In this document: piece by piece, positions 33,038 through 62,680 of the stretch
Layout of the letters: each line of letters opens with the position of its first letter
How positions within the stretch are numbered: the first letter of the stretch is position 1
Translations under genes and position numbers: made by a program
Virus record (IMG/VR): IMGVR_UViG_3300029258_002750
Coordinates: 62,001 to 126,000 of that record
Length of the DNA: 64,000 nt
Reading direction: 5' to 3' (one strand)
From: a virus
Notes under the pieces: model-generated
Databases searched by the model: none
Told to the model about the DNA's origin: nothing
The model's input: only the letters and a program-made list of their open reading frames with translations

Positions 33038-33477
33038 CCGACCTCATGATCCTGCTCGCCGACACGGCGACGAAGACCGCCGCTGACCCCACGATCCCGA
33101 GCTGGGGCAAGTACGTTCTCGGCCCACTTGGCTGCCTGGTGCTGCTCCTGGTCTACGCCATCTACACGGAGAAGTACCGGATCCCCAAGTTCGAGGGGCT
33201 GCTGAAGACGAAGGACGACGCGCTGAAGGAGGCGCGGGACGAGCTGAGTACGCTCCGCGAGCAGAACTCGATCAAGCGGGAGGAGATCCGCGACAAGGCT
33301 GAGTCCAGGGAGGACGATCTGGAAGCGGAGATTCGGAAGCTCCAGGCCAAGATCGCGAAGGAGAAATCAGCCCGCGCGTGGTGGCAGGCGAAGGCGACTG
33401 GCGCCTTCAAGCGGCTCGACGAGGAGTTGAGCATCCCCGAGGACATCGACAAGACGCACTACGGGGGCGATGGCTAG
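33034..33477 (+). CDS. Membrane-anchored coiled-coil protein
   Basis: 147 residues. One membrane segment near 28-46 (YVLGPLGCLVLLLVYAIY), then a long charged coiled coil to about 115. Same layout as the gene at 22695. Its TAG shares CTAG with the stop of the convergent gene 33474-33926. Possible spanin or membrane scaffold; unknown. Confidence 0.6.
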   Translation: MTDLMILLADTATKTAADPTIPSWGKYVLGPLGCLVLLLVYAIYTEKYRIPKFEGLLKTKDDALKEARDELSTLREQNSIKREEIRDKAESREDDLEAEIRKLQAKIAKEKSARAWWQAKATGAFKRLDEELSIPEDIDKTHYGGDG

Positions 33478-33926
33478 AGGTTGTTGAGCGCGCACCACAG
33501 CTCGCGCAGGGTCGCCCAGCGCTTCTTGCCGTCCAGCTTGATGCGCACCTTCGCCTCGTGGAGCTTGTGGAGACGGCGCTTGTAGGTGAGCACGATGTCG
33601 GAGTCTTGGGCCGGAGCGTGCTTCCAGGTGATCTGCACACAGCCGGTCACGTAGCTGACCGAGCCGGAGCAGTCGCCGTGCAGAGCACCATCCTCGCTGA
33701 CGTCGCAGCAGGCCATCTCCGGTTTCACGTGCCCGGCCAGCGCGCCCAGCTGGCTCACGGCGTCTGGCGGCATGACGCGGATGAACACGGAGCCCGGGAC
33801 GATCGGGCCGCGTATCGCGATCGAGTAGTTCGTCGTCGCGTGGTCGCCCTTCCCGATCGACATCCGGCGGTCTTCGGTCTTCGGGAACTCGTCCCACCGA
33901 TCGTCGCTCCAGTCGCTAGCGCTCAT
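33474..33926 (-). CDS. Hypothetical protein with internal DRLG box
   Basis: 150 residues from ATG 33926, overlapping the upstream stop. PPDAVSQLGALAGHVKPE sits near residue 58, unusually central. Cys residues in ACCDVSEDGALHGDC and VTGC could bind metal. Function unknown. Last gene of the minus-strand run. Confidence 0.6.
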   Translation of the reverse strand: MSASDWSDDRWDEFPKTEDRRMSIGKGDHATTNYSIAIRGPIVPGSVFIRVMPPDAVSQLGALAGHVKPEMACCDVSEDGALHGDCSGSVSYVTGCVQITWKHAPAQDSDIVLTYKRRLHKLHEAKVRIKLDGKKRWATLRELWCALNNL

Positions 33927-34198
33927 CGGCAAGACTCCCGAGAGCCGTGATTGCGCAGGGTGCGACCGGCTCCCAGTTGCGCGTCATGAACCATTCGAGC
34001 AGATCGGGCTTGTTCGTCTCCAGCCAGATGGTACTGCGGACTGTCTGGGGTGCAGAGCGAGAACCACCTGGAGGCGCCCGCGTGCGTCGGCAGGTGCTCT
34101 TTTGCCTGCGCCTCGTAGTCGAGGGGGTGCCGCTTCTCATCCCTGTAGGACAGCGCAGACCCGACGCGCGAGAGCCGGATGGCCTCGTGCAGCGTCAC
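33916..34198 (-). pseudogene. Small DRLG-box protein with apparent frameshift
   Basis: GTG 34198 overlaps the previous TGA. The N-terminal frame (VTLHEAIRLSRVGSALSYRD) runs into an Arg-rich nonsense tail, whereas the next frame gives TIWLETNKPDLLEWFMT and a proper end, CAITALGSLADER, overlapping the next gene as usual. Removing one base from the GGGG at 34047-34050 joins them. The N-terminus matches that of gene 60761-61024 (VTLDEALAESRIGLVIRR), so the two are paralogues. Sequencing error or real mutation cannot be told apart. Confidence 0.55.
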
Positions 34199-34533
34199 GC
34201 CTTCACCTGGCACTCGCAGCCCTTCGCCACGAGGATGCGACGCTGATCCGCGAGTGTGGTGATGCGCGACGGCGGTGGTACCTGCTCGTCCCAGTACGGC
34301 AAGCACGCGAGCGGTGATTTGTGATTCCACCCGCGCCGGACCATCTCCTCGGCCTGCTGCTGGTGGCGAACCGCCAGGTGTTGGAGACGCCCCTCCCAGC
34401 GCTTGACCTCTGGATGATGGCGGTAGCCTTGCCTGTCCTCGGTCAGGATCGTCCAGATCGCGTGCAGCTCGCGGTGCTCACCGAGCAGGTGCTTGCGGCA
34501 GAGAACGCGAACCGGCAGATCCCAGATCCTCAC
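34195..34533 (-). CDS. denV: Pyrimidine dimer DNA glycosylase (T4 endonuclease V-like)
   Basis: 112 residues. MRIWDLPVRVLCRKHLLGEHRELHAIW contains the Pdg family start, with conserved HLLGEHRE, followed by GYRHHPEVKRWEGRL and MVRRGWNHKSPL. These enzymes cut the glycosidic bond at UV pyrimidine dimers and nick the strand, protecting phage DNA. Shorter than T4 DenV (138). In T4 the N-terminal Thr is the nucleophile; here Arg follows Met, so the exact chemistry may differ. No DRLG box. Confidence 0.8.
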   Translation of the reverse strand: MRIWDLPVRVLCRKHLLGEHRELHAIWTILTEDRQGYRHHPEVKRWEGRLQHLAVRHQQQAEEMVRRGWNHKSPLACLPYWDEQVPPPSRITTLADQRRILVAKGCECQVKA

Positions 34534-34940
34534 TCGAAGCTCTCGTCAGCGATGGCGGCGAGGTGATCGACGGCCGATGGGAACACGTCCGGCTGGATGT
34601 CGGCCAGCACACGGGCGGGCATCCTGCCCTCGGCGGCGGCAATCGTGAGAAGTGCGTCGAGGAGTTTCTCCTGCGACTCCCAGGGGGGTCCGCTGATGTT
34701 CACCTCCATGTTCGTCTTGATGTGCGTGTAGTAGCCGGTGTAGGTACCGCGCTGCCACGTGGCCTCGTCATCCCTGCAACGATCGGCTAGGTACTGCTCG
34801 AACGGTTCCGTCCTGAGGAGCATGAGTTCGTGGGGAAGGATGGGCGCTAGGAAGAGGCGGACGACCTGCTCCAGCCGCTCGATTCGCTCGACGAGCTTCT
34901 CGAACTCCTCGACAAACTCGCGCCCCGGCCCAGAGATCAC
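34530..34940 (-). CDS. Hypothetical protein with C-terminal DRLG box
   Basis: 136 residues. N-terminal coiled coil (FVEEFEKLVERIERLEQVV), then a helical region; ends PSAVDHLAAIADESFE. Coupled by 4-nt overlaps to both neighbours. Function unknown. Confidence 0.65.
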   Translation of the reverse strand: MISGPGREFVEEFEKLVERIERLEQVVRLFLAPILPHELMLLRTEPFEQYLADRCRDDEATWQRGTYTGYYTHIKTNMEVNISGPPWESQEKLLDALLTIAAAEGRMPARVLADIQPDVFPSAVDHLAAIADESFE

Positions 34941-35248: not shown

Positions 35249-35462
35249 TCGGCTTCCTCTTTCTCTCTAGCCGAGCGAGCTGGTCGATGGCCGAGACCAG
35301 TCGAACCCTGCCAGCCCAGCACTTCATCATCTTGGGCTCGCCAATGGCCGCGTCGTGAAGCCAGAACACGACCTCCTCCGTGAGCGGCCAGTAGCAGTAG
35401 ACCTTGCCGGTGCGGCCAGCGTAGCGGCCCTCGATGATGTGGATCTCGTCGCCCGGTTCCAT
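35208..35462 (-). CDS. KOW/SH3-like small protein with DRLG box, leaderless
   Basis: 84 residues. GDEIHIIEGRYAGRTGKVYCYW reads like a KOW motif found in NusG and ribosomal proteins; SAIDQLARLERKRKP is the DRLG box, followed by a 14-residue extension over the next gene. ATG 35462 is six bases after TAGAAC. Confidence 0.6.
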   Translation of the reverse strand: MEPGDEIHIIEGRYAGRTGKVYCYWPLTEEVVFWLHDAAIGEPKMMKCWAGRVRLVSAIDQLARLERKRKPNEGSRVLHRTATA

Positions 35463-37175: not shown

Positions 37176-37942
37176 TCGGTCTCCTCCTCGTGTCTGATCA
37201 CGTTGCCGAGTCTCGTGATCGCATCCGAGCACAGATCGTGGATGATCCTGAGCCGTCCACGCTCGAGGCTCGCTTCCTTGAGCGCCTTCGAGGCGGCCCG
37301 CTTTGAGCGAAAACTCTCGGGCAGTGCCTCGCCCTCGTAGCCGTCTTCGCCGTAGAGCCTGGCGATCCACCGGCCCTGGACCCTGGTGATTCGGCCGAGC
37401 CGCACGTTGATGCCGCTGTGTTTTCTGCCGAGCCACACCTGGCGGCCCCGGTTCCTGTAGGAGAACGGCAACTCGATCAGCTTGGCCCAGCCCTCGCTGT
37501 CCAATTCGATCGTGAGAGCTGAGATCCAGTAGGGAACACCGCGCAGCCAACGCCAGTCTGCGGCCGATTCCGGCCGCGTCAGCCAGAACTCGATGTCACC
37601 GAGCCTGCGCCAGAACCGCCAGCTCGTACCGGACACGGTCTCGGAGCCGTCTTCCCCGGTCACTGTGCGGCGGCCGTGCATCTCCGGGTAGCGGGACGAC
37701 CACCGGCCCCACCGATCGCTCTCGTCAGTCGCGCTGCGCTCGCGCTTGAACGAGATCTTGCACTCGACCTCCCACTCCGGGTCGGCCTTGATTGGGTAGC
37801 GAAGGAACGCCTCGAACCATTGCGTGTGCCAGCGAGAGTTGCTGCGCTCCTCGACGCCCTTCGTGTGGACGGTCCACCCGTGGCTGGCGGCGAGCTTGAT
37901 CATGCGCTCGGCACGGGTCGGCAGGCTAACGGTCGTCGTCAC
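37172..37942 (-). CDS. Hypothetical Trp/Arg-rich protein with DRLG box
   Basis: 256 residues from GTG 37942. Rich in Trp and Arg with strands such as VECKISFKRERS and GVPYWISALTIEL; the end is CSDAITRLGNVIRHEEETE. Overlaps its neighbours by 4 nt each. Function unknown. Confidence 0.65.
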   Translation of the reverse strand: MTTTVSLPTRAERMIKLAASHGWTVHTKGVEERSNSRWHTQWFEAFLRYPIKADPEWEVECKISFKRERSATDESDRWGRWSSRYPEMHGRRTVTGEDGSETVSGTSWRFWRRLGDIEFWLTRPESAADWRWLRGVPYWISALTIELDSEGWAKLIELPFSYRNRGRQVWLGRKHSGINVRLGRITRVQGRWIARLYGEDGYEGEALPESFRSKRAASKALKEASLERGRLRIIHDLCSDAITRLGNVIRHEEETE

Positions 37943-38277
37943 GCCGCCTCCTCTTCGTCGAGCAGCGAGCCCATCCGGGTGATGACGTCGATCTCCTTCG
38001 TGTATCCCTTGTCGCGCTTCTTGCCCTTCAGCTCCCGCGCGTGCTTCTTCGCCGAGAACCTGCTGTGGCGGATCTCGACCTTGATCTGGCCCCTCGTGCC
38101 GTACTTGCCCCAGCGCCGGACGACCTTCCACTGGCCGTCGTGCCTGAAGATCGCGACCTCCCAGTACTTGTCGCTTTTCCCGCTCTTGTTCGAGGCATTG
38201 GGTCCGAGGTACTCGAGGTAGCGGTGGTAGACCGGCTCGGGCCAGGTGTCGTAGGGACTGATGTCGGTGATCTTCAC
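37939..38277 (-). CDS. WGR-domain protein with DRLG-like box
   Basis: 112 residues from GTG 38277 (GGAGGA upstream). SDKYWEVAIFRHDGQWKVV, RRWGKYGTRGQIKVEIRHS and KKRDKGYTKEI match the WGR domain in order. WGR binds nucleic-acid ends in PARPs and occurs alone in some bacteria. The C-terminus IDVITRMGSLLDEEEAA is a DRLG-type box. May recognise DNA breaks or modified DNA. Confidence 0.75.
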   Translation of the reverse strand: MKITDISPYDTWPEPVYHRYLEYLGPNASNKSGKSDKYWEVAIFRHDGQWKVVRRWGKYGTRGQIKVEIRHSRFSAKKHARELKGKKRDKGYTKEIDVITRMGSLLDEEEAA

Positions 38278-38975: not shown

Positions 38976-38981
38976 GTTCTA
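38976..38981 (-). promoter_or_regulatory. Putative leaderless promoter TAGAAC
   Basis: CGGGTAGAACCTTGGGTGTG: seven bases separate it from GTG 38968, which is in frame with gene 38480-38857. Confidence 0.45.
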
Positions 38982-39530
38982 CCCGGGGTCGGCCAGTTCT
39001 CCGAGATGCTCGATGGCGCTCAGGAGATCGATCTCCCCCGGCTCCTCGCGACCGTCGCACAGGCGATCTGCGCAGTTGTTCCAGCGCGTGAAATCCGAGT
39101 TGTCGCGCTGATGTCCCGCGTGGTGGATGAATGACAGGAAGAGCCCGCGATCCTCGGCGATGGCCATCGCGTGTTCTATCTTGCCGCGCACCAGCTGATC
39201 TTTGATCTTCCAGTTGCCTGTCATCCAGGCCGCGATCCCGAGGTAGTCGGAGACGATGGTGACCTCGGTGTTCTCCGGTGCGCGAGCGAGTCCGAGGCAC
39301 AAGGCATCCAGCTCTGCACCAACGTTCCTCGTGCTCGTAGGCTTGTTGAAGCCCGCGTACTTCCTCGCGTAGGCGCGGGTGACAACCACGGCCCCGAAGC
39401 CGCCCTTCGAGCTGCCATCGGTGAAGACGTACGTCTTGTCGGCCATGCAGCGTCGGTCCTCTAGGAGAGAGACCCACTTGGCCTGGTGCGGAACGCGGGT
39501 GGTCTTGAGATTCGTGGAGTAGACGGTCAT
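38979..39530 (-). CDS. rnhA: Ribonuclease HI-like protein with DRLG box, leaderless
   Basis: 183 residues. YVFTDGSSKGGFGAVVV (first Asp), NVGAELDALCLGL (Glu), VTIVSDYLGIAAW (second Asp) and HHAGHQRDNSDF...NNCADRLC give the RNase HI order D-E-D-D. It removes RNA from RNA-DNA hybrids such as Okazaki primers. ATG 39530 is six bases after TAGAAC; a start at the internal MADKTY is an alternative. It ends LLSAIEHLGELADPG. Confidence 0.8.
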   Translation of the reverse strand: MTVYSTNLKTTRVPHQAKWVSLLEDRRCMADKTYVFTDGSSKGGFGAVVVTRAYARKYAGFNKPTSTRNVGAELDALCLGLARAPENTEVTIVSDYLGIAAWMTGNWKIKDQLVRGKIEHAMAIAEDRGLFLSFIHHAGHQRDNSDFTRWNNCADRLCDGREEPGEIDLLSAIEHLGELADPG

Positions 39531-41595: not shown

Positions 41596-42035
41596 GCCAC
41601 ACCTCGCGCCGGGATGAAGAAGTCCTCGTCGCAGGCGAGCGGGTTGAACCGCAGATCGAGTTTGCCTCCGCCCCGCCTCTGCTCCTGCTCCTTCTTCCAC
41701 TTCGCCCATTCCGGGTTCTCGGCGACCGGCATGTCGCAGAGTTTCTTCATGGCCGCGCCCGCGACCTCGCCCTGGCGCCGCGCCTCTTTGGTTGCTGCCT
41801 CCATCTCGTCCCACGCATCGACCCACGCCTTCAGCTCCGGGTCGGCCAGTGCGCCGAGCCGATCGTGGACGGTCGGTTCGCGGAGCGGGCTTGGCGTCCG
41901 TCGCGGCGGCGGTGCGCAGACCTGCTTCTTCTTGAGGTCGCGCTTCACGCGACGAAGGAAATCATCGACCTCGGACATCTTGTCGTAGCCGAGACCGCGC
42001 AGCCGCTTGATGATCCGCTCTCGAATGCTGCTCAT
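41592..42035 (-). CDS. Hypothetical protein with central DRLG box
   Basis: 147 residues. Basic N-terminus (RERIIKRLRGLGYDK), then PTVHDRLGALADPELKAW at about 55-72, a charged helix and a basic C-terminus. Function unknown. Confidence 0.6.
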   Translation of the reverse strand: MSSIRERIIKRLRGLGYDKMSEVDDFLRRVKRDLKKKQVCAPPPRRTPSPLREPTVHDRLGALADPELKAWVDAWDEMEAATKEARRQGEVAGAAMKKLCDMPVAENPEWAKWKKEQEQRRGGGKLDLRFNPLACDEDFFIPARGVA

Positions 42036-42460
42036 AGGTACTTCCTCTTGATCTTCTCTGCCGCCCGGTCGCGCGCCGTCTTGCCTGTGATCTTTACCTC
42101 CTTGGGCTTGGGCGGGTCTACGACGGCCGCGAGTCGGTCGACGGCGTGTGCGTTGAGGAATTCGAGGATCTCGGTCGCGAGCTTCCTAAACGCTCTGCCG
42201 TAGGTCTTTCCGTAACCACGGATGCGGAGTACGTGAGCGAGCCACTCAAGGCAGTCCTTGTCGGCCGAGTGAAGGTTCAAGAAAGCGCCCTCGTCGTCGC
42301 CCTCGAAGCTCTCGGCGATGCGATGCCAGATCTGCTGCTCGGGTTCGGTGCGACGCGAATGCGGCTTGCCGATGGTGCGGCGGATCCACATCATCACCTT
42401 CGACTCGATGTAGATCTTCGAGCTGACTCTACGTCTTCGGCCAGGCTGGGCTGATTTCAT
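42032..42460 (-). CDS. Hypothetical protein with DRLG box
   Basis: 142 residues if started at ATG 42460, which overlaps the upstream gene by 32 nt; a start at the ATG pair near 42396 is possible. LNAHAVDRLAAVVDPPKP lies near residue 105, followed by a basic tail (KTARDRAAEKIKRKYL). Function unknown. Confidence 0.6.
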   Translation of the reverse strand: MKSAQPGRRRRVSSKIYIESKVMMWIRRTIGKPHSRRTEPEQQIWHRIAESFEGDDEGAFLNLHSADKDCLEWLAHVLRIRGYGKTYGRAFRKLATEILEFLNAHAVDRLAAVVDPPKPKEVKITGKTARDRAAEKIKRKYL

Positions 42461-43055: not shown

Positions 43056-43455
43056 CGCCTCCGCTGCCTTCTACCTCCAGGTCTAGCACTACCGTGCTGG
43101 CAGTGCTCGCGCTCTCCACCATCGTCCACGTGATCAGGCCGTTCGGGCAGTTCGTGTGGTGCCGCTGGCAGCGATCGGGGCCGTGGTCCATGCAGCCTTC
43201 GCAGCGGTGCAGGTCGGCGAGCGCATCGACGGCCGAGTAGGGCTTCACCGCGCGGGGAGTGCGGTAGACGAGGCGGCCCGTGGCCAGCTTGACGCCGTAT
43301 CCCCATTCGTCGTCTTTATCGGTGACGACTTCGCCTCGGATCCACACGACGCGCTCTAGGGCTTCTGTCTCGGAGATGCCGAGCGCCCAGGCGGTGTGCA
43401 TGACCGCTTCTAGGGACTCGCGGGTGACGAGGACGCGGTCGCCGCGCTTGATCAC
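42877..43455 (-). CDS. Hypothetical protein with DRLG-like box; doubtful 3' end
   Basis: GTG 43455. Residues 1-125 look coding: RGDRVLVTRESLEAVMHTAW at the start, PYSAVDALADLHRCEGCMDH and a Cys/His-rich GPDRCQRHHTNC. After that the frame runs 180 nt through gene 42768-43055 and turns Arg-rich, so the natural stop has probably been lost by a small indel near 43085. Confidence 0.5.
   Translation of the reverse strand: MIKRGDRVLVTRESLEAVMHTAWALGISETEALERVVWIRGEVVTDKDDEWGYGVKLATGRLVYRTPRAVKPYSAVDALADLHRCEGCMDHGPDRCQRHHTNCPNGLITWTMVESASTASTVVLDLEVEGSGGDALHRKPRGDAEWRDYLPRGRGSRVDRRQRYDPHKQHKQRKHVHRARRSRAGRRGHKAR
43068..43073 (-). promoter_or_regulatory. Putative promoter TAGAAG
   Basis: GAGGTAGAAGGCAGCGGAGGCGATG: 12 nt to ATG 43055, which includes GGAGG. 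Confidence 0.4.
43085..43107 (-). terminator. 9-bp hairpin before gene 42768-43055
   Basis: AGCACTGCC-AGCAC-GGTAGTGCT pairs over 9 bp (one G-T) with a 5-nt loop, directly upstream of the TAGAAG promoter. No T run follows, so it may be a weak terminator or processing site. Confidence 0.4.
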
Positions 43456-43702: not shown

Positions 43703-44173
43703 TCACGGGAGTCCCAGCTTCTTGTTCCGGCAGCTGTCGCACCGGGCCTCGTTACCACACCAGTGCACCAGCCCCTCGATCGGTTGCTCGCAGTCGGCGC
43801 AGACCGGCCTCTCGTCTTCCATCTCGTTCAGCACGTCCTTCAGGTCGCGGCGGCCGAGCACGTCGCCCAGCCGGGAGACCGAGTCGAGCGGCTCGACGGC
43901 TTGCGGCGGCGCCCATGCGAACTCCAACCCGTCATCGAGGATAAGCCGGAGCGTCGTGGTCCCGTCGGGGTTCGTGATGACTCGATCGACCGTCGCCTTC
44001 TTGCGAACGCCCTGGCCCTCTTGGATCGCCTTGTCGAACGACGAGAGCAGGTGGTCCTTCGGCAGGTCGTGCGAGCCGTGTGTGCCGCCGGGTCCGTAGG
44101 AGCAACCGGGCTGGGGGACGAAGTCGACTCGATCGCCGGGTTGCCAAGATGGTCCGATGATGGGGATGTCCAT
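43703..44173 (-). CDS. DRLG-box protein with C-terminal zinc ribbon
   Basis: 156 residues from ATG 44173 (AGGAG). GDRVDFVPQPGCSYGPGGTHG opens it; PLDSVSRLGDVLGRRDLKD is an internal DRLG box; CADCEQPIEGLVHWCGNEARC-DSC is a zinc ribbon at the end. Box and ribbon in one chain suggest an adaptor. Unknown function. Confidence 0.65.
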   Translation of the reverse strand: MDIPIIGPSWQPGDRVDFVPQPGCSYGPGGTHGSHDLPKDHLLSSFDKAIQEGQGVRKKATVDRVITNPDGTTTLRLILDDGLEFAWAPPQAVEPLDSVSRLGDVLGRRDLKDVLNEMEDERPVCADCEQPIEGLVHWCGNEARCDSCRNKKLGLP

Positions 44174-44181: not shown

Positions 44182-44574
44182 CTAGTCCTGTTCTACCTCG
44201 ACGACCGGACACAGGGCGCCGAGAGCATCGACGGGGTTCGGGTTCGGCCAGATCTCGATCCACCGGGTCCTGGCGACCGGCTTCCCCGGGATGACCTGCT
44301 GTACCAGGATCGACGCGCGCCAGCCTCGCCGGATGAACTCAGCTGGCACCTTGGCTTTGAGCGCGGCCCGCGCCTTCTTCTCCGACCGGAAGGTGTGCTT
44401 GAACATGGGCCTGGTGGCGACCGTCCACATGCCCTTGCGCAGATGGAAGCCGAACTGGCGCCTGTGCATTCCGTAGCGGAACTGGACGACGTCGAGCACC
44501 TCGTGACGCTTCTTCCCGCGCCGATCGATCTCGGTCTTGTCCAGGCGCACGATGTAGGAGCGGCCGTCGTCCAT
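44182..44574 (-). CDS. Small basic protein with DRLG-like end
   Basis: 130 residues. Basic beta-rich body (RRQFGFHLRKGMWTVATRP); ends NPNPVDALGALCPVVEVEQD. The ATG overlaps the previous stop (TGATG). Function unknown. Confidence 0.6.
   Translation of the reverse strand: MDDGRSYIVRLDKTEIDRRGKKRHEVLDVVQFRYGMHRRQFGFHLRKGMWTVATRPMFKHTFRSEKKARAALKAKVPAEFIRRGWRASILVQQVIPGKPVARTRWIEIWPNPNPVDALGALCPVVEVEQD
44190..44195 (-). promoter_or_regulatory. Putative promoter TAGAAC
   Basis: GAGGTAGAACAGGACTAGGAGACGTCATG: inside the last codons of the gene upstream; 16 nt to ATG 44173 with AGGAG. Confidence 0.4.
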
Positions 44575-50803: not shown

Positions 50804-51155
50804 TGGCCGTCTTCCCCACCAGTGCGAGCAGGTCCACGATGTTGATCGCCTGCACATCCACATCGCTGGCTGTCGTGAGGATCGGCGGATTCTTGACGCC
50901 CATCGCCATGAAGAACTGCATCAGCTCCTCGCCGATCGCGTTGACAGTGTCCGGCTCGTAGCGGTCCGGGTCGAACTGGACCCACAGGACCATGCCCGGC
51001 TTCCACTCGATCGTGGTGAGTTGCCGCACCGGCTCCCGGAGCATCGCATTCCGCTCGGCCTGCTCCAGGTGCCGCATCCAACGGCGGTTCCACAGGAAGA
51101 CGATGAGCATCATCACGCCCGTGCAGCCGATCACCACATACGTACAGATGGTCAT
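50796..51155 (-). CDS. Membrane protein with DRLG-like box
   Basis: 119 residues. One N-terminal membrane segment (YVVIGCTGVMMLIVFLW) followed by a soluble domain; ends INIVDLLALVGKTASE. So the box also occurs in membrane proteins, on the soluble side. Confidence 0.6.
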   Translation of the reverse strand: MTICTYVVIGCTGVMMLIVFLWNRRWMRHLEQAERNAMLREPVRQLTTIEWKPGMVLWVQFDPDRYEPDTVNAIGEELMQFFMAMGVKNPPILTTASDVDVQAINIVDLLALVGKTASE

Positions 51156-51577
51156 CGGGCTACGACCAGGTACCTTACCAGGTCGCCCAGCCTGTCGATC
51201 GCTGACAGCTTCTTCAGCCGGTCGATGTGCACATCTTCGAGCTGTCGGCCGTCGTCCATCTCGACCAGCCATTTCTCGAGGTTGGGCTCGTCCGAACCGC
51301 GCCTGAGCAGCGGGTGTGAGACGAGCGTTCCCCGCTCGCAGTCGAGGAGCACCCGGTCTCCGGCCGACCAGCCGTGGGCCGACTCGCGGCGGCGGCGCAC
51401 GTAGCGGAGCCACTTCCACGTCGGCCAGACGCCGAACACGGCCGCAGCAAAGCCCATCGCCCAGAACTCCCAGTTGCTCCACCAGTGGCCGAGTAGCCAC
51501 TTCTCGAGGGTCGATAGGGCGAAGATGATCAACATGCTCAGGTCGATGATGAGCGCGATTCGGGTCCAGAATCCCAT
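51152..51577 (-). CDS. Two-segment membrane protein with DRLG box, leaderless
   Basis: 141 residues. Hydrophobic segments near 5-25 (IALIIDLSMLIIFALS) and 38-55 (FWAMGFAAAVFGVW); then SH3-like strands (GDRVLLDCERGTLVSH) and LSAIDRLGDLVRYLVV at the end. ATG 51577 is six bases after TAGAAC. Confidence 0.65.
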   Translation of the reverse strand: MGFWTRIALIIDLSMLIIFALSTLEKWLLGHWWSNWEFWAMGFAAAVFGVWPTWKWLRYVRRRRESAHGWSAGDRVLLDCERGTLVSHPLLRRGSDEPNLEKWLVEMDDGRQLEDVHIDRLKKLSAIDRLGDLVRYLVVAR

Positions 51578-51589: not shown

Positions 51590-51943
51590 CCCGGCCAGCT
51601 CGCCCAGTCGCTCGACCGCGCTCGTGTTGTTGTAGTCGTGGACCGCCTCTGCGAGCAGGTTGAAGTCCCAGCCCGGCGACCAGCGGTGCAACCACCGGAA
51701 GAACGCGGCGATCTCGATCAGCTCTTTGGGCGAGAAGACCCAGACCCGGCTCATGTTGATCGCGTGACCGCCGCGCAGGTCTTCGAGTAGCCTCTCGACA
51801 CCGGGCACGACGACCTCGGGTGGCGTGTAGTAGTGCTCCTCCCGGAGGATCACACTCCGCTGGGCATCGGTAAGCGCCAGCATGTGCGGCGCCAGCAGCT
51901 CGCGCGCCTGCTCTTCGGTCATGTCAGCTGGGTCGAGCGGCAT
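51587..51943 (-). CDS. Small protein with DRLG box
   Basis: 118 residues. Helical (TEEQARELLAPHMLALTDAQ; ELIEIAAFFRWLHRW); ends TSAVERLGELAG, with nothing after the box. Function unknown. Confidence 0.65.
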   Translation of the reverse strand: MPLDPADMTEEQARELLAPHMLALTDAQRSVILREEHYYTPPEVVVPGVERLLEDLRGGHAINMSRVWVFSPKELIEIAAFFRWLHRWSPGWDFNLLAEAVHDYNNTSAVERLGELAG

Positions 51944-52262
51944 CGTATAGCTCCCCCAGCCGAACCACGGCCGACCTCGGTCGGATCCAGTGGGCCGAGA
52001 GCATCTGCGGATCGTGCGGCGGCCGGTCCTCGCCCTCCTCCAGCACGTAATCCAGGTAGTAGAAGATGGTCTGGCCGTAGGCCCCATAGCGCGCGACGTG
52101 TGTGACCCGGCAGAGGTAGCGCAGGGACGGATCGTCCTTGCGCGGGTGCAGCCAGACTGGATCGCCCTCCGCGAACTCTGGCTCGGGGACCTCGAACGTG
52201 GGCGGGCTGAACGTCATCCCGGCGTGCTTCTCGGGATTGCAGCGGTTGCAGTTACAGATCAC
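51924..52262 (-). CDS. Cys-start small protein with DRLG box
   Basis: 112 residues. MICNCNRCNPEKH may bind metal; EGDPVWLHPRKDD strands; ends IRPRSAVVRLGELYDAA. Overlaps the next gene by 20 nt. Function unknown. Confidence 0.6.
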   Translation of the reverse strand: MICNCNRCNPEKHAGMTFSPPTFEVPEPEFAEGDPVWLHPRKDDPSLRYLCRVTHVARYGAYGQTIFYYLDYVLEEGEDRPPHDPQMLSAHWIRPRSAVVRLGELYDAARPS

Positions 52263-52518
52263 GCTCGGCTATCTCCCCCAGACGTTCTACCGCGCTCCTC
52301 TCCTCGTAGAGCTTCCATCTCGCCTTGTGCAGTCCGCCGATGTGGTCGTGGCCTGGTCCGTGTTCCGTGGCCTTGACCCGTCCGGTACGCGAGTCCCACA
52401 CCTGGTTCCACGGGATGATCTTCTGGCAGGGTTGACCGGGCTCGGCCATGCAGCGCGGGCAGCGGTGCTGCTTCGCGCGCTCGTGCCTGAGCCTGCGCAG
52501 CTCATTCGCGTCCGGCAC
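52252..52518 (-). CDS. Zinc-ribbon protein with DRLG box
   Basis: 88 residues from GTG 52518. HRCPRCMAEPGQPCQ zinc motif, His-rich middle (HGPGHDHIGGLH), ends ERSAVERLGEIAERDL. Function unknown. Confidence 0.65.
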   Translation of the reverse strand: MPDANELRRLRHERAKQHRCPRCMAEPGQPCQKIIPWNQVWDSRTGRVKATEHGPGHDHIGGLHKARWKLYEERSAVERLGEIAERDL

Positions 52519-53093: not shown

Positions 53094-53316
53094 CGGCCAG
53101 TTCCGCGAGCATGTCCACGGCGCTTGGCGCGCAACGGTCGCAGCACCAAGAATTGCGCAGGATCCATCCTCGCCGCCGCGCGGCGTCGAGCAGTCGGGCT
53201 ACCGCATCATGGAACGCGCCTTCTTCCTCCGGGTAGTCGTAGAACTCCGATAGGCCGAGCCGCGCCAAGCACTTACGGCACTCGATCATTGGCTGGACCT
53301 GGTGACTGCTACTCAC
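53086..53316 (-). CDS. Zinc-ribbon protein with DRLG box
   Basis: 76 residues from GTG 53316. ECRKCLARLGLSEFY and WCCDRCAPS form a split zinc ribbon; ends PSAVDMLAELADE immediately behind the second Cys pair. Function unknown. Confidence 0.6.
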   Translation of the reverse strand: MSSSHQVQPMIECRKCLARLGLSEFYDYPEEEGAFHDAVARLLDAARRRGWILRNSWCCDRCAPSAVDMLAELADE

Positions 53317-53596
53317 GAACCAGATCCCCCAGTTGATCGACAGCGGGCGCGGGCCGGATGTAGTTGAAGTTGCCTGGTGCGTAGCCGACCTTGTGGTGCT
53401 TCTCTCCCGTCTCGACGATGCGGAAGTCGAACTTGCTGCCGTTGATTCGGAGGATGATGGCCTTGTGCCACGTGTCGCTGAAGTCTCGCTTCGCTCGGTC
53501 CCACAACCGGACCTCGATGCTGTCGCCCGGCCGGTAGAAGACGCCCTTGTTCTTCTTCCGCGCTTGCGCGTGCCGCCACTTCTTCCGCTTACCCAT
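53309..53596 (-). CDS. Small SH3-like protein with DRLG box
   Basis: 95 residues. Basic start (GKRKKWRHAQARKKNKG), strands (GDSIEVRLWDRAKRDF, HKAIILRINGSKFDFRIV), ends RPAPAVDQLGDLVRE. Function unknown. Confidence 0.65.
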   Translation of the reverse strand: MGKRKKWRHAQARKKNKGVFYRPGDSIEVRLWDRAKRDFSDTWHKAIILRINGSKFDFRIVETGEKHHKVGYAPGNFNYIRPAPAVDQLGDLVRE

Positions 53597-53828
53597 ACGT
53601 CAGCTCCCCGAGCCGCGTGATCGCGTCGTCGCAGGGACGAAGGGACGTCACGTGGTAGGAGCGCGATCGACCGTGGCGGCGCGGCTGGTTCGGGTAGATC
53701 CACCGGACGAAGACGCGTTGAGGGTCCTTGCGCTCGTAGCGTTGGACGACCCCGTGTTGGTGACGGTGCCGCATCGCGACCGTGTTGATGATCACGCGCT
53801 CGCCGACCTCCGGCCTCCACCTATCCAC
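53589..53828 (-). CDS. Small SH3-like protein with DRLG box
   Basis: 79 residues. VGERVIINTVAMRHRHQHGVV strands; ends PCDDAITRLGELTYG. Same plan as its neighbour, so a likely paralogue. Function unknown. Confidence 0.65.
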   Translation of the reverse strand: MDRWRPEVGERVIINTVAMRHRHQHGVVQRYERKDPQRVFVRWIYPNQPRRHGRSRSYHVTSLRPCDDAITRLGELTYG

Positions 53829-54060: not shown

Positions 54061-54380
54061 AGGAGATCCTCTGCGAGCGAGCCGAGCGCGTCGATGGCTT
54101 TGCCGTCTTCGATGAGTTTGTCGCGATAGCGCAGCTTCGCCTGTATCTCGCTGATCATCCGCGTGAAGCGCGCCGCCGAGGCCGCCGAGAGCCCACACAG
54201 ATTGAGACAGATGTGCGTGTCGCTGTCCTCCGGCAGCGAGAGTTGGGCGTTGCACTCGGGGCAGCGCCACCGGGAGAGCGCGCCGTCGAGAAGCAGCACG
54301 TCGCTCATCTCGTCGTCCCAGCGCGCGGGCTTCATGTTGACGTGGGGGACGCCTCCGATCGTGCAGTAGCCGATGATCAT
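54057..54380 (-). CDS. Zinc-ribbon protein with DRLG box
   Basis: 107 residues. WRCPECNAQLSLPEDSDTHIC-LNLC zinc ribbon, then a helical stretch and GKAIDALGSLAEDLL at the end. Function unknown. Confidence 0.65.
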   Translation of the reverse strand: MIIGYCTIGGVPHVNMKPARWDDEMSDVLLLDGALSRWRCPECNAQLSLPEDSDTHICLNLCGLSAASAARFTRMISEIQAKLRYRDKLIEDGKAIDALGSLAEDLL

Positions 54381-54634
54381 CGGTCGGTCTCCCATCCCAT
54401 CAGCGGCTCCCACTCTTGGGTCCGGTAGTCCACGAGCCATTTGCAGCCGTAGCAGATGATGAAGAAGCTGCCGACGCGATCCGTTTCGCCCTCGTGCTTG
54501 CACTCCCGGAAGCGCGCGAGACTCTCCTCGAACTTCCCGAGGTTCGCCAGCGTGTCGATCGCGCTGCTCTTCGTGTTCTTCGCCCTGGCGCGCCAGTAGT
54601 CCTCGCCGCTCTTGATCGTGTCGTGTTCAGCCAT
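54377..54634 (-). CDS. DRLG-box protein with box near the N-terminus
   Basis: 85 residues. KSSAIDTLANLGKFEE begins at about residue 23, so the box is not tied to the C-terminus. It is followed by ECKHEGETD and FFIICYGCKW, a likely metal site. Function unknown. Confidence 0.6.
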   Translation of the reverse strand: MAEHDTIKSGEDYWRARAKNTKSSAIDTLANLGKFEESLARFRECKHEGETDRVGSFFIICYGCKWLVDYRTQEWEPLMGWETDR

Positions 54635-55007
54635 CGCTCTCGTCCTCTTCCGCGTCCTCGAGCACGCGCGCGATGTCGCCCAGGAGCGTGATCGTGTCCA
54701 TCTTCATGAGGAACTGCGGGCCGAGCATCGTGGTCTTCCCGCGCTGTGGGCCGGTCGTCCAGCGAACGTGGACCGACCAGCAGCCGCCGTACTTGGAGCA
54801 CGACTCGACGCGGGCCGTGAACCGGCCCGCCTCACCGCCGTCGCCGTCGCCCATCGCGACGCGGAAGGTCTGGCCCTTCTTGAACGGTGGATTGTCGCCG
54901 TAGATGAGCGCGCGCCGAGCTGCCTCGTCGTCGCGAGCTTTCTCAACCTCGCGCTTCATCCGCTTCAGCACGGCGTCCGGGTCGTCGCTGGAGCTGTGCC
55001 TATACAC
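54627..55007 (-). CDS. SH3-like protein with DRLG-like box
   Basis: 126 residues from GTG 55007. Charged helix first (KRMKREVEKARDDEAARRAL), then QTFRVAMGDGDGG and WSVHVRWTTGPQRGK strands; ends MDTITLLGDIARVLED plus acid tail. Function unknown. Confidence 0.6.
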   Translation of the reverse strand: MYRHSSSDDPDAVLKRMKREVEKARDDEAARRALIYGDNPPFKKGQTFRVAMGDGDGGEAGRFTARVESCSKYGGCWSVHVRWTTGPQRGKTTMLGPQFLMKMDTITLLGDIARVLEDAEEDESDG

Positions 55008-55432: not shown

Positions 55433-55715
55433 GGGTCACCAGTCCTGCTAGCTGCTCGATCGCACCGGCCAGCTCGACGTTGCAGATGCCCTTGTCGATC
55501 TTCTGCCTGCCGACGCGCACGCGGCAGAAGTACCATGGCTCCTCCCCTACCAGGAAGAACTCGAAGATCCGACCGCGCAGTCGGCTTCCGCCCAGCGTCT
55601 CGAACTCGACCAGGGACCCGATGCTGAGGCCCCGGCTCTCCTTGATCAGCGCGACCTCGGAAGAGTCGGCGGAGAGCTTGATGCGGCGGGGTTGCTTCAT
55701 GCTCCCGTTCTTCAT
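55374..55715 (-). CDS. SH3-like protein with DRLG-like box, leaderless
   Basis: 113 residues. GSLVEFETLGGSRLRGRIFEF strands; VELAGAIEQLAGLVTHE near residue 85, then an Arg-rich stretch over the next gene, so the functional protein may end near 95. ATG 55715 is six bases after TAGAAC; a second ATG with a similar upstream CGGGAGC lies at 55700. Confidence 0.6.
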   Translation of the reverse strand: MKNGSMKQPRRIKLSADSSEVALIKESRGLSIGSLVEFETLGGSRLRGRIFEFFLVGEEPWYFCRVRVGRQKIDKGICNVELAGAIEQLAGLVTHERASARRDGRRCRRRRRR

Positions 55716-55721: not shown

Positions 55722-55727
55722 GTTCTA
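55722..55727 (-). promoter_or_regulatory. Leaderless promoter TAGAAC fused to stop codon
   Basis: CGGGTAGAACGGGAGCATG: TAG ends gene 55725-55952; six bases to ATG 55715. Confidence 0.6.
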
Positions 55728-55952
55728 CCCGGGATCGGCGACGATCTCTCCGAGCAGTTCCACGGCCGAGAGCGGCTCGATCTCGAACTGCGTGACCCAG
55801 AACCGGACCGCCTCGCCGTCGAGAACGACGTCGGAACGGATGTAGTAGGCCGGGCTGCTCCCGTCGCTCCATCGGTGAGGGTCGATGGCCTCGATGGTCC
55901 CTCGCCTCGGCCCGTCCTCAATGTGGTAGATCACCCGGTCGCCGATCCTCAC
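55725..55952 (-). CDS. Small SH3-like protein with DRLG box
   Basis: 75 residues from GTG 55952. IGDRVIYHIEDGPRRGTIEAI strands; ends IEPLSAVELLGEIVADPG. One of the EP-box proteins (acidic-Pro just before the box). Function unknown. Confidence 0.65.
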   Translation of the reverse strand: MRIGDRVIYHIEDGPRRGTIEAIDPHRWSDGSSPAYYIRSDVVLDGEAVRFWVTQFEIEPLSAVELLGEIVADPG

Positions 55953-56194
55953 AGCAGTGCCCCGAGCCGCGTGACCGCGTCGGCCTCGACCCAGTAGTCG
56001 TCCAAACTGACGAACGTCTGGATCTTCAGCCGCAAGTCCCGCGCGATCCACCACAAGGTCTCGTCGCATATCGCGTCTGGATCTCTCCCGCCGTGGTACT
56101 GGCCGAAGCACTCCTCGACCGTAGCCGGGCGCGTCAGTTGGACGAGTCTGCGGCCGGTTCCCACGAGCAGCAGTCCTGGTTCCGGCTCGATCAC
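55949..56194 (-). CDS. Small protein with DRLG box
   Basis: 81 residues. ATVEECFGQYHGGRDPDAICDE centre; ends EADAVTRLGALL with the box as the very last residues. Function unknown. Confidence 0.6.
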   Translation of the reverse strand: MIEPEPGLLLVGTGRRLVQLTRPATVEECFGQYHGGRDPDAICDETLWWIARDLRLKIQTFVSLDDYWVEADAVTRLGALL

Positions 56195-56412
56195 GCGGCC
56201 ACCAGACTACCCAGCTGATCGACCGCGTCGAGCGCCTCGACCGCGCGCACGTCCACGAACGTGCAGACCTCCATCAGGTCGTCGTCCCAGGCAATGTCGA
56301 GGGAGCGGGGCCGCTTGTCCTTGTCCCACGAGCGGATGCACTTGATCGTTCCTGCGCGCGCGAGACCCCGGGTCGTGCGAACACGGACGCCTGTCGCGAG
56401 CGCGAGCTTCAT
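56191..56412 (-). CDS. Small SH3-like protein with DRLG box
   Basis: 73 residues. TGVRVRTTRGLARAGTIKCI and SLDIAWDDDLMEVCTF strands; ends EALDAVDQLGSLVAA. Function unknown. Confidence 0.65.
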   Translation of the reverse strand: MKLALATGVRVRTTRGLARAGTIKCIRSWDKDKRPRSLDIAWDDDLMEVCTFVDVRAVEALDAVDQLGSLVAA

Positions 56413-57145: not shown

Positions 57146-57375
57146 TTCTGCCTCCTCGCCAGGTCTGCCATCAGGTCGATGGCGGTGTTCTCTCTCAGAA
57201 TGAGGCCCGGGAGCCACCCGGTCGCGCTCGGGCAGTCGGGGTCTCGGACCTCGATAAGACCGTCGCCCACTTCGCCCGTGCCGCGCAGCACCAGGCCCGC
57301 AGACCAATAGGGCGGGTCGAGGGCCGGGTCTCCATCTTCGGCCCACCAGTCGGCGGTCAGGGTGTAGTCGGTCAC
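57142..57375 (-). CDS. Small protein with DRLG-like box
   Basis: 77 residues. Trp/Asp-rich first half (ADWWAEDGDPALDPPYWS), strands, ends ENTAIDLMADLARRQK. Overlaps the next gene by 4 nt. Function unknown. Confidence 0.6.
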   Translation of the reverse strand: MTDYTLTADWWAEDGDPALDPPYWSAGLVLRGTGEVGDGLIEVRDPDCPSATGWLPGLILRENTAIDLMADLARRQK

Positions 57376-59320: not shown

Positions 59321-59326
59321 GTTCTA
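59321..59326 (-). promoter_or_regulatory. Leaderless promoter TAGAAC fused to stop codon
   Basis: CAGGTAGAACAAGGGCATG: TAG ends gene 59324-59758; six bases to ATG 59314. Confidence 0.6.
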
Positions 59327-59758
59327 CCTGTCCTTCACCTCCATCCTCCTGGCTACGTTGGCGAGTCGGTCGATCGCGGTCACGCCAGCTGACTCGGACA
59401 GGGCATCGACGCGGTGACGAAACTGATTCGCCAGCCGCTTGTCTCCTCGGCGTCGCGCCCAGCTCTCCGCTCGCTTGCACAGCTCGCGCAGCCGCTTGAA
59501 GCGCGGCAGGTCGAAGCTGACCATGTTCACGTGGTCGGGCGAGAGCTTCACTGCCCACCCGTTCATGTTCTTGGCGCCGAACGCGAGCGCGCGGTGCACG
59601 GCCCATACGGGGTTCACGACATTCAGCTCGTGGTTCTTGCCAACGATCTTCGGGTTCCAGTCCTTAGCGATCTGGTACGTCTCGCGGTCGAGGTGGAGCA
59701 GGATCACACAGTGGCGCTGAGTGAGGGTTGTAGTACGCGGTGGTGTGGGGGTGCCCAT
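59324..59758 (-). CDS. Hypothetical protein with DRLG box
   Basis: 144 residues. Basic helical body (KRLRELCKRAESWARRRGDK); ends GVTAIDRLANVARRMEVKD. Function unknown. Confidence 0.65.
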   Translation of the reverse strand: MGTPTPPRTTTLTQRHCVILLHLDRETYQIAKDWNPKIVGKNHELNVVNPVWAVHRALAFGAKNMNGWAVKLSPDHVNMVSFDLPRFKRLRELCKRAESWARRRGDKRLANQFRHRVDALSESAGVTAIDRLANVARRMEVKDR

Positions 59759-60218: not shown

Positions 60219-60764
60219 TCAATCTACCGACACATCCCCCACTTCTTCCCAGACGAGCGCGCCGAGCCGATCGACGGCGCTAAGTGACGCCGCGAAGGCG
60301 GCTCGGAGCGCTTCCCAGGCGGCCTCCCGTCGCTTGGGTCGCCTGATCCTGCCATCCCACAGGTCGGCGCCGACATCGAATCTCGGCTCCTCGGACCGGC
60401 GCTTCACGTTGATCGCGACGTGGGGGAGTACGATCCGGGCGATACCCGCGCTGGTGGGCTTGTTGTTCAAGTAGGTCCAGCTGTGCCAGACGACCGTGGT
60501 TCCGTGTGGGTCGGCGACCGCGACTGCGAGCTGCGTCCAGTAGGCGGTGGCCTCGTAACGCTGCCTGCTGGATGTTCGCGAACAGGCGGCCAGCGCCGAC
60601 CACTTCCGGTTGCGCTTGATCTTCTTCCCTCGCTTCTTCTGTGCCCGCTGGCCGAGCTTCATCGGGTCGAACCGATCGCACTCGGCGATCCTGTGTGCCG
60701 ACCGGGAGCCCGGCCCGCTCGTGCGTTGGTCCGGCGGCGTGTCGAGGTAGATGACCTTGATCAT
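60219..60764 (-). CDS. Basic hypothetical protein with DRLG box
   Basis: 181 residues. Arg/Lys-rich (QKKRGKKIKRNRKWSALAAC), with SLSAVDRLGALVWEEVGD at the end. Function unknown. Confidence 0.65.
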   Translation of the reverse strand: MIKVIYLDTPPDQRTSGPGSRSAHRIAECDRFDPMKLGQRAQKKRGKKIKRNRKWSALAACSRTSSRQRYEATAYWTQLAVAVADPHGTTVVWHSWTYLNNKPTSAGIARIVLPHVAINVKRRSEEPRFDVGADLWDGRIRRPKRREAAWEALRAAFAASLSAVDRLGALVWEEVGDVSVD

Positions 60765-61024
60765 GCCAGCTCCCCCAGCTTGTCGATCACGTTCTTCGGC
60801 TCGACCGGCTCCCAGTTCTTCCAGTTGCCGAACTCGGCCTCCTCGCGAGTCGTGGAGAACAGCGCGTCATGCCCGACCGCCGAACGAGTCCGGCACCAGC
60901 GCACGGCATGGCGCGCGGTCTCCCACGAGCCGCGAACGAAGTAGTAGTTCCACGTCCCGTAAGCCTTGGTGCGTCGGATGACCAGGCCGATCCTGCTCTC
61001 GGCTAGCGCCTCGTCCAGCGTCAC
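60761..61024 (-). CDS. Small DRLG-box protein, paralogue of 33916-34198
   Basis: 87 residues from GTG 61024. VTLDEALAESRIGLVIRRTK matches the start of the frameshifted gene at 34198 (VTLHEAIRLSRVGSALSYRD). Middle Trp-rich; ends KNVIDKLGELA. Function unknown. Confidence 0.65.
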   Translation of the reverse strand: MTLDEALAESRIGLVIRRTKAYGTWNYYFVRGSWETARHAVRWCRTRSAVGHDALFSTTREEAEFGNWKNWEPVEPKNVIDKLGELA

Positions 61025-61596: not shown

Positions 61597-61763
61597 GCCG
61601 AACTCTCTCGACAAACGCAGACGAGCACGACGCCGACCATTGCGGTGATTCCCCAGAAGATGATTGGGATGTCCGGTGCGGCTTTCATGCAGAGTCCGAG
61701 GACGATGGAGAGTAGGAGCAGCTCGCTCCAGAATCGAATCTCGAGCCTAATGTGTGTCAGCAC
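61593..61763 (-). CDS. 56-residue two-segment membrane protein
   Basis: GTG 61763. Hydrophobic stretches ELLLLSIVLGLCM and IIFWGITAMVGVVLVCVC separated by a short polar turn. Fills the gap between the SEC-C gene and its upstream neighbour with overlaps at both ends. Confidence 0.55.
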   Translation of the reverse strand: MLTHIRLEIRFWSELLLLSIVLGLCMKAAPDIPIIFWGITAMVGVVLVCVCRESSA

Positions 61764-62023
61764 GAGATGTCTCCCAGTCGATCGACGGCCGGGATCAGGT
61801 TCTCTAGCGCGCGGATGGCCCGCTTGATCTCGTCCACGTTGCGGAAGTGGATGCAGCCGCGCGACGCTGTACCCGCCGGTCTGCCCCTGAAGTCGTAGAT
61901 CGAGTCCTTGATGTGGAGCCAGCCGATGACGTCCGGCTCGTTCGGCGCGGGCCGTGTGTAGATCTCGGCCTCAGAAGGGGAACTCACTTGGAAGGGGAAC
62001 TCGGCCTCAGAAGGGGAACTCAC
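61757..62023 (-). CDS. Small DRLG-box protein with duplicated start region
   Basis: 88 residues from GTG 62023; GTG 61987 is an equal alternative because VSSPSEAE occurs twice 12 codons apart. Body GWLHIKDSIYDFRGRPAG; ends LIPAVDRLGDISC. Function unknown. Confidence 0.55.
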   Translation of the reverse strand: MSSPSEAEFPFQVSSPSEAEIYTRPAPNEPDVIGWLHIKDSIYDFRGRPAGTASRGCIHFRNVDEIKRAIRALENLIPAVDRLGDISC

Positions 62024-62024
62024 T
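61964..62024 (-). repeat. Perfect 25-bp direct repeat, 36 bp apart
   Basis: CTCGGCCTCAGAAGGGGAAC plus TCACT occurs at 61964-61988 and 62000-62024. The in-frame period of 36 bp duplicates the start codon region of gene 61757-62023 and overlaps the stop of the upstream gene. Confidence 0.75.
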
Positions 62025-62402
62025 CGGATCGATCCCTGGTTCAATGTCGTTCGCGACCTCGGCCAGTCCGACGACGGCGCCCTTGTGGTCGAGGATCTGC
62101 TCCCGCATCTTGTCTCGGTAGACCTCTCCCGCGTACGCGCGAGCAGTGTTGTCGAGGCTCTCCCACGTGCTCCTGTGCTGGATCGAGCAGAAGATGAGCA
62201 CGCGCTTCTTCGGTCCCTTTCGGAACATGCCGCCCATCTCCAGCACCGTCGAGACGTGGGAGGCGTTGTGTGCTACCCAGCCGGGCGGCAGGTCGCCCCG
62301 GAAGTAGTCCTTGGCGTCCCGCGCCTGCTTGTGGATCGCAGCCTCGGCCTTCATCTTCGTTCCGCACAGTTCGCACGTGAAGGTGACATCGATGCCGCTC
62401 AC
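62007..62402 (-). CDS. DRLG-like box protein with N-terminal zinc motif
   Basis: 131 residues from GTG 62402. FTCELCGTKMKAEAAIHKQA is half a zinc site; ends KGAVVGLAEVANDIEPG. Function unknown. Confidence 0.6.
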   Translation of the reverse strand: MSGIDVTFTCELCGTKMKAEAAIHKQARDAKDYFRGDLPPGWVAHNASHVSTVLEMGGMFRKGPKKRVLIFCSIQHRSTWESLDNTARAYAGEVYRDKMREQILDHKGAVVGLAEVANDIEPGIDPSEFPF

Positions 62403-62680
62403 GTGCTCTCTCCGACACTCGCCAGCCGATCGATCGCCGAGCACGAGTCGAGCGGGGCCTCGGCCCACTCGTACTGGCAGGTCCGACAGGAGCGGTGCAT
62501 GTGCTCCTCGGCGGAGAGCCTGCCTTCCATCAGGCGATTGCCGATCGTCGCCGGTACTGACAGCCCGCTCTTCAGCCTCTTCTTCAAGAACGGCTGTGCC
62601 TTGACCCACACCACGTGGATGTCGCGCTGGCCGCACTTGGGGCAGGAGCGATCGTGTCGGTAAGGCTTCAGCTCGCTCAC
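62399..62680 (-). CDS. Zinc-ribbon protein with DRLG box
   Basis: 93 residues from GTG 62680. RSCPKCGQRDIHVVW and HRSCRTCQYEW form the ribbon, similar to phage Ogr/Zn-ribbon proteins; ends CSAIDRLASVGEST. Function unknown. Confidence 0.65.
   Translation of the reverse strand: MSELKPYRHDRSCPKCGQRDIHVVWVKAQPFLKKRLKSGLSVPATIGNRLMEGRLSAEEHMHRSCRTCQYEWAEAPLDSCSAIDRLASVGEST

Follow-up and report, generated by a model that had tools for sequence, protein, structure and literature searches.

Several described systems attach a short peptide to proteins that are otherwise unrelated. Bacterial proteins that bind the sliding clamp share a motif of the form Q-phi-x-[LM]-[FL] or Q-phi-x-[LM]-x-[FL] (PMC11139829), terminal amphipathic helices route enzymes to one compartment in microcompartments and also mark encapsulin cargo (PMC12108088), and in phage T4 a variety of internal proteins bear the same short tag (PMC3012670). 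For import into the phage nucleus of certain jumbo phages, published work found no conserved linear signal (PMC11087766). Here, a ten-residue peptide, the box, was analysed in a window of 64,000 bases, which comprises positions 62001–126000 of the 275,101-base virus record IMGVR_UViG_3300029258_002750, a jumbo phage with a G+C content of 65% (phage A). The reading that we favour, with a probability of roughly 0.55, is that the box is a helix by which proteins dock on a single common partner, either encoded by the phage or not yet assignable.

The rest of the record was also analysed. Genes were called with our own script from codon use, start codons and ribosome sites, and not with a standard caller; a standard annotation might place gene starts differently, and the boxes are independent of them. 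Relatives were located in IMG/VR by the DNA pattern of the box and further ones by DNA polymerase and capsid searches, and most of them were fragments. Contigs G001 and G006 jointly tiled phage A at ~80% protein identity, and G002 and G003, which came from one metagenome, did so at about 40–60%; we infer that each pair is one phage (phages B and C, respectively). The capsid proteins of phage D (G012) and phage E (G013) were 80 and 69% identical to that of phage A, and the G+C contents were 65% in phages A–D and 58% in phage E. The capsid protein of phage A was gp23-like, with ~30% identity to those of SP-15, Listeria phage LIS04 and the 595-kb record LR756511, which therefore placed it in a deep T4-like lineage. 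No hint of a host came from GTDB genomes when these were searched with the capsid protein, and megablast of the region against named phages gave no match.

Starting from strict seeds, a profile of the box was extended, and its scores were compared with those on shuffled versions of the proteins; the threshold used has ~2% false positives. In phages A, B and C together, 381 of 1,130 proteins were boxed, against ~7 expected from shuffling, and 11 reversed proteins passed. The whole record of phage A contained 138 boxed proteins among 410, and contig G002 contained 126 boxed genes among 263. Between positions 33474 and 62680 of the window, where a sequence-only reading had seen the peptide in about forty proteins, the profile found it in 40 of the 75 called genes. 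When 2.9 million viral contigs were scanned by pattern, repeated matches occurred only in relatives of phage A; two other contigs had one isolated box-like site each, inside large proteins. No shared C-terminal motif rose above chance in the control records (five 50-kb pieces of LR756511 and 50 kb of Caulobacter phage CcrColossus).

The consensus of 363 distinct boxes was [S/D/P]-A-[V/I]-[D/E/T/S]-[R/Q/A/L]-L-[A/G]-x-[L/V/I]-[A/V]. The sixth residue was leucine in 353 of them, and A or G came next in 353. The residue following D/E was often A or L, beyond R or Q, and the second residue could be V or P. A group of small proteins across phages A–C had an extended variant, PS-A-V-[DE]-R-L-A-A-[LV]-x-D-P-[ED]..A.RV..[WY]D. 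The boxes lay mostly near the end of the protein: their numbers per tenth of protein length, from N- to C-terminal, were 4, 8, 12, 19, 19, 22, 18, 27, 81, and 179, and in 240 of 389 at most 10 residues followed. Sixty-six of the 389 boxes were more than 60 residues from the protein end, and the central box (residue 55 of 147, gene 41592) and the near-N-terminal box (residue 24 of 85, gene 54377) of the sequence-only reading were both present.

This position bears on the view that the box is a degradation signal for a host or phage protease, which would time the clearing of early proteins. The pronounced excess near the C-terminus (no more than 12 residues between box and protein end in 253 of 389 boxes) suits it, as do the many boxes at the extreme end in phage E and the transfer-messenger RNA (tmRNA) of the phage, with tag peptide ANAPVRLAA, which suggests that proteolysis read from the tail matters here. 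However, about a quarter of the boxes were more than 30 residues from the end, including those in loops of the DNA polymerase and the nuclease, and the residues after the box were variable and mostly charged, which makes a degradation signal improbable. The tmRNA gene lies in an array with ~35 tRNA genes (L002 6525–16678; record 6.5–16.7 kb), beside which a protein at record 17340–19016 reads, by eye only, like a Ro60/TROVE homolog.

The boxes were conserved in their residues and not in their codons. Pairwise nucleotide identity among the 141 boxes of phage A was 0.540, against 0.537 ± 0.003 when the same peptides received random codons; for the boxes of G002 the values were 0.544 and 0.544 ± 0.003. 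Codon usage in the boxes resembled that of the genome, and serine at the first (N-cap) position was drawn from both codon families (146 TCN and 59 AGY). Box nucleotide identity thus equalled the peptide-only expectation, and therefore selection acts on the peptide, in agreement with the earlier remark that codons vary while residues are kept. Where both orthologs of phages A and B were boxed, 83% of box residues were identical vs. 70% elsewhere, and 31% of the identical residues differed in codon; between phages A and C the corresponding values were 63, 44, and 52%. No shared sequence was found in the 30 bases on either side of the boxes. The clustering of boxes at gene ends in tightly packed operons would also be expected of a DNA- or RNA-level feature with a look-alike translation, such as a recombination joint, a repeat, or a translation-coupling or regulatory sequence. 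Codon resampling together with the flanks ruled out a repeat, a recombination joint and an RNA signal of defined sequence, no Rfam match was found, and some boxes are internal, so that the probability of such a feature is negligible. A sequence-specific DNA or RNA signal was refuted by the resampling test itself.

The carriers of the box were unrelated to one another. Clustering of the 138 carriers in phage A after the box had been masked gave 136 clusters. The case that would have undone the sequence-only reading, in which the boxes are ordinary parts of one known domain family, was examined with Pfam, PHROG and PADLOC: no Pfam family occurred in more than 2 of the 130 boxed proteins scanned, none covered the box, and each listed PHROG or PADLOC family was found in 1. 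The boxed proteins that Pfam could name were RNase H, WGR, HNH, DnaB-like, ResIII helicase, SNase, zinc finger, HTH and KOW/SH3-like proteins and a Gp23 piece, mainly nucleic-acid enzymes. A simple hydropathy rule predicted a membrane segment in only 4 of the 381 boxed proteins. The same reading had held that recent arrivals lack the box, which applied to four genes of the window, one GIY-YIG and three SEC-C, but an HNH gene (record 196323), an SNase-like gene and an RNase H gene of phage A were boxed. The SH3-like GDxV start shared by about a quarter of the boxed proteins (92 of 381, vs. 52 of 749 unboxed) might suggest descent from a single old family in which the end was conserved and the front parts changed fast. 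Such common descent is most improbable in view of the 136 clusters, the boxes on known unrelated enzymes and the clean gain and loss within orthologs, and the enzymes refute it as a general account.

The box was gained and lost as a module. In the exonuclease part of DNA polymerase I, near-identical proteins had PPDPVTRLGDVVREPQPEL in phage A and PPDEPTQTPEL in phage B. The loop box of SNase and the tail box of RNase H were present in phage A only, and the tail box of a kinase in phage C only. Altogether, A–B orthologs had 55 boxes in common and 6 on one side only, and A–C orthologs 41 and 8. The DNA polymerase I gene (record 40880–43639; G006 4500–9425; G013 110032) carries inteins at differing places in the relatives.

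The residues of the box had the signature of a capped, amphipathic helix of about ten residues. The hydrophobic moment at 100 degrees was 0.491, compared with 0.282 when the residues were shuffled; for a strand, the moment was lower than chance. The first (Ncap) and fourth (N3) residues covaried: S occurred 180 times with D/E and never with T/S, and D occurred 74 times with T/S and 11 times with D/E (Fisher p=3e-54). Both pairings are listed among the side-chain motifs of helix N-termini (PMC4515027): the first, N-cap serine plus an acidic N3 residue, is the capping box, and the second has D as N-cap and T/S as N3. The fourth and seventh residues covaried as well, with T/S nearly always accompanied by G. 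The model of RNase H folded well, with RNase H matches in PDB, and its box residues 171–183 had a predicted local distance difference test (pLDDT) score below 50, as expected of a free tail that would fold upon binding; the disorder comes from this one model.

The form of the box changed between lineages. In phage D, 55 of 179 proteins had [DS]-[VAP]-[VI]-[ED]-x-L-A-E-L, often as the final residues. In phage E, 35 of 236 proteins (1.3 expected) had x-[VP]-L-D-x-L-A-x-I, in many cases as the very last residues, and the profile of phage A gave 2 matches there, not above shuffled proteins. The same protein could be followed through the change: a capsid-fragment protein had SAVDRLAALA in phages A and C and CIIDALATLD in phage D, and a DUF6011-type protein had SVVEKLAALS in phage A and TVVEKIAALD in phage D. 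If the boxes have one shared, changing partner, most boxes of a genome would be expected to change together. Boxes that bind one another, in homotypic helix bundles that form a condensate or lattice with no separate receptor, would change jointly for the same reason, and the small G/A after the central leucine permits close helix packing. However, a single ten-residue helix is probably short for stable self-bundling, and a second matching face would be needed, which was not seen on the polar side; we consider bundling distinctly improbable. Two relatives of phage E, G015 and G017, had few or no boxes, and loss is not proven because these contigs are fragments.

Boxes were unevenly distributed along the genome. 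There were 0–1 boxed genes per 10 kb in the virion block (200–260 kb) and none in the replication block (30–40 kb), and accessory blocks reached 60–75%. Among genes common to phage E (the deep core) 12% were boxed, vs. 29–54% of genes restricted to phages A–C. This prevalence among accessory genes of a host-acting kind would also fit the same docking helix with a host partner, for example a polymerase, ribosome, nuclease or chaperone, that is recruited to phage proteins or saturated by them. The lineages with different motif forms differ in part in G+C content, which may mean different hosts. Nevertheless, the motif was stable between A and C at about 45–60% protein identity and altered in D at a similar capsid distance, which fits a phage-encoded partner at least equally well, and the phage's DNA polymerase and its RNase H both carry boxes, which suits a phage site better. 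A host partner is thus rather unlikely, yet it is the rival that we take most seriously.

Under the docking reading, the box would be a short linear motif on the tails, and sometimes loops, of about one third of the phage proteins, and its apolar face (A, I/V, L, G/A, L/I/V, A/V) would bind a groove on one shared partner. Many small unrelated proteins, together with DNA polymerase I, RNase H, and nuclease and helicase-like proteins, would be gathered in this way at one place in the cell. The partner would most likely be a phage-encoded scaffold at a replication or nucleoid site and not in the virion, since boxes occur on the polymerase, RNase H and further nucleic-acid enzymes and on nearly none of the virion proteins. 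A fuller version is put forward tentatively: one phage-encoded receptor may gather more than 100 phage proteins at a specialised site, new genes may be admitted on gaining the ten-residue helix, and the code may drift between lineages. The sequence-only reading had proposed an amphipathic docking helix to one partner or place. The hydrophobic moment, N-cap covariation, selection on the peptide, modular gain and loss, disordered RNase H tail and lineage drift make this the best-supported reading, and the sequence-only proposal is thereby partly supported.

Several points weigh against the docking reading. In the ortholog comparison only pairs boxed in both phages were counted, so that box identity is inflated. 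The motif is short, and some low-scoring internal boxes are therefore chance, as in record gene 268834, where the match is the phosphatase motif GDLVDRG. A second structure model, of the Ig-like gene with its loop box, had a pLDDT of only 42 and was too poor to interpret. No convincing receptor was found among the genes present in all box-bearing lineages and missing from G015 and G017, and the partner that co-evolves with the boxes could belong to the host. The majority of giant-phage genes are without known function. If the docking reading is true, the tag would link about a third of them through one partner and offer a handle on dozens of unknown proteins at once; it would also be a rare natural case in which the co-evolution of a motif with its receptor is recorded over an entire proteome, and it may become a means of sending chosen proteins to the working site of the phage.

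Table. Boxes and related features of phage A. Positions are those of the window unless marked as record or by contig; weak rows carry their score.
Box or feature	Gene	Box positions	Strand	Remarks
DAVSQLGALA	33474-33926	33735..33764	-	Internal (residue 55/150); Ig-like, related to insertion domain of major capsid protein; profile score 22.8; kept in phage B
SAVDHLAAIA	34530-34940	34548..34577	-	
SAIDQLARLE	35208-35462	35265..35294	-	
DAITRLGNVI	37172-37942	37196..37225	-	
DVITRMGSLL	37939-38277	37960..37989	-	
SAIEHLGELA	38979-39530	38991..39020	-	RNase H, C-terminal tail; orthologous tails of phages B and E without such box
TVHDRLGALA	41592-42035	41844..41873	-	Central
HAVDRLAAVV	42032-42397	42119..42148	-	
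SAVDALADLH	42877-43455	43207..43236	-	Gene start uncertain
DSVSRLGDVL	43703-44173	43856..43885	-	
NPVDALGALC	44182-44574	44209..44238	-	
PAVDQLAEVI	47561-47890	47579..47608	-	
SAIDALGNIA	47887-48132	47944..47973	-	
SGVELLGALS	48472-48789	48502..48531	-	
GVIDQLAAIV	49120-49452	49174..49203	-	
SAVDRLADIA	49839-50141	49875..49904	-	
SVVDRLAEVG	50134-50514	50206..50235	-	
SAVDQLADLA	50507-50803	50516..50545	-	
NIVDLLALVG	50796-51155	50814..50843	-	Box-like; weak, score 10.6
SAIDRLGDLV	51152-51577	51176..51205	-	Two hydrophobic segments, SH3-like part, box (domains by eye)
SAVERLGELA	51587-51943	51593..51622	-	
SAVVRLGELY	51924-52262	51945..51974	-	
SAVERLGEIA	52252-52518	52267..52296	-	Phage_zn_bind_8
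SAVDMLAELA	53086-53289	53095..53124	-	
PAVDQLGDLV	53309-53596	53318..53347	-	
DAITRLGELT	53589-53828	53598..53627	-	
KAIDALGSLA	54057-54380	54072..54101	-	
SAIDTLANLG	54377-54634	54536..54565	-	Near N-terminus
DTITLLGDIA	54627-55007	54669..54698	-	
GAIEQLAGLV	55374-55715	55437..55466	-	
SAVELLGEIV	55725-55934	55740..55769	-	
DAVTRLGALL	55949-56194	55952..55981	-	Final residues
DAVDQLGSLV	56191-56412	56200..56229	-	
TAIDLMADLA	57142-57375	57157..57186	-	
TAIDRLANVA	59324-59707	59351..59380	-	
SAVDRLGALV	60219-60764	60252..60281	-	
NVIDKLGELA	60761-61024	60764..60793	-	C-terminal end
PAVDRLGDIS	61757-61987	61763..61792	-	
GAVVGLAEVA	62007-62402	62052..62081	-	Box-like; weak, score 11.2
SAIDRLASVG	62399-62680	62411..62440	-	
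DVVSQLGAVA	1313-7573	6371..6400	+	Outside 33474-62680; inside 2086-residue protein; may be chance
DAVDLLATMR	26803-27120	26923..26952	+	Outside 33474-62680
SAVDKLAKIA	27121-27663	27427..27456	+	Outside 33474-62680; kept in phage B
NAIDRLACLP	28464-29321	28821..28850	-	Outside 33474-62680
Extended-variant genes	Record 25861-26936, 46414, 144341, 158530			Also in G001, G002, G003
Capsid-segment protein	Record 25086-25493 (L003:5086-5490)			G001 13995, G003 99292, G012 59210
Second-peptide genes	17474-18577, 30715-31665, 45837-46631, 46641-47564; record 150585, 208921			Also in G002, G003, G001, G006, G012

Some neighbouring genes were recorded alongside. The 2086-residue protein was kept in phage B and had no Pfam or PHROG match. 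A small boxed protein, kept in phages A–D, had a capsid-protein segment, SVQPMTxPVGGxAFYRPRY, followed by the box; in T4, this part of the capsid protein contains the Gol peptide, and the small protein could possibly be a decoy for a capsid-sensing defence. A single protein of 1750 residues, in which a UvrD helicase is joined to a 2′-5′ RNA ligase-like domain, was encoded at record 170537–175789 (L008:5038–10290), with homologs in phages B and C. At record 1960–4367, a MoxR-type AAA ATPase adjoined a VWA/metallopeptidase-like protein, both kept in phages A–D and recognised by eye.

A search of the open literature, with subscription papers and preprints outside its scope, found no described system of this kind. 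The sliding clamp was considered because DNA polymerase I, RNase H and nucleases are boxed. Like the box, the clamp-binding motif, or the PIP (PCNA-interacting protein) box of PCNA, is a short motif in the tails or loops of unrelated proteins that meet at one hub. The two differ in form, since the box is a regular helix, A-[IV]-[DE]-[RQ]-L-[GA]-x-L, and the clamp-binding motif occurred in 1 of 389 boxes with their flanks. A DnaN-like clamp gene was present in phages A, B and C; in the G013 contig of phage E none was found at the syntenic place or elsewhere, though this phage has its own box set, and a host or off-contig clamp is possible. The clamp as an obligatory receptor was set aside on the motif count and the missing gene.

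The capsid targeting sequence of T4 is also a short amphipathic tag on unrelated proteins, and phage A is T4-like by its capsid protein, which lends some appeal to the view that the box is a signal for loading the head, like the internal-protein tag. The T4 sequence is N-terminal, is cleaved by the prohead protease at [LI]-x-E, and marks few virion proteins; in contrast, the box is mostly C-terminal, and the cleavage pattern occurred in only 88 of 389 boxes and not regularly. Moreover, a second shared peptide, N-terminal MSL[YF][DE]R[VLI], with L-x-E in many cases coming after it (MSL[YF][DE]RV..LxE), was found in ~19 otherwise unrelated proteins, of which 1 was also boxed, and this peptide resembles the T4 capsid targeting signal together with its protease site. 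Boxes in the DNA polymerase and in loops would make no sense as cargo tags. Capsid targeting by the box is thus highly improbable, and it was set aside on position, cleavage site and the existence of the separate N-terminal tag.

The box shares the amphipathic helix of microcompartment encapsulation peptides, with far more clients and with positions inside loops as well. The shell family PF00936 of bacterial microcompartments was absent from G000, G002, G003 and G013, and control genomes were positive. Jumbo phages with a phage nucleus likewise sort many of their own proteins, whereas phage A is T4-like, and a tubulin search found no tubulin family gene in the phage (the chimallin shell was not profile-searched). 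There is also a likeness to the short linear motifs of eukaryotes and their viruses, which have the same selection at the level of the peptide, disordered context, gain and loss, and drift. As in helical motifs of that class, peptide-level conservation was found in the tails and loops of unrelated proteins, with disorder taken from one model. The box differs from the eukaryotic motifs in being proteome-wide, on about one third of the proteins of a prokaryotic virus, and, to our knowledge, an addressing code like this would be without precedent among bacterial viruses.

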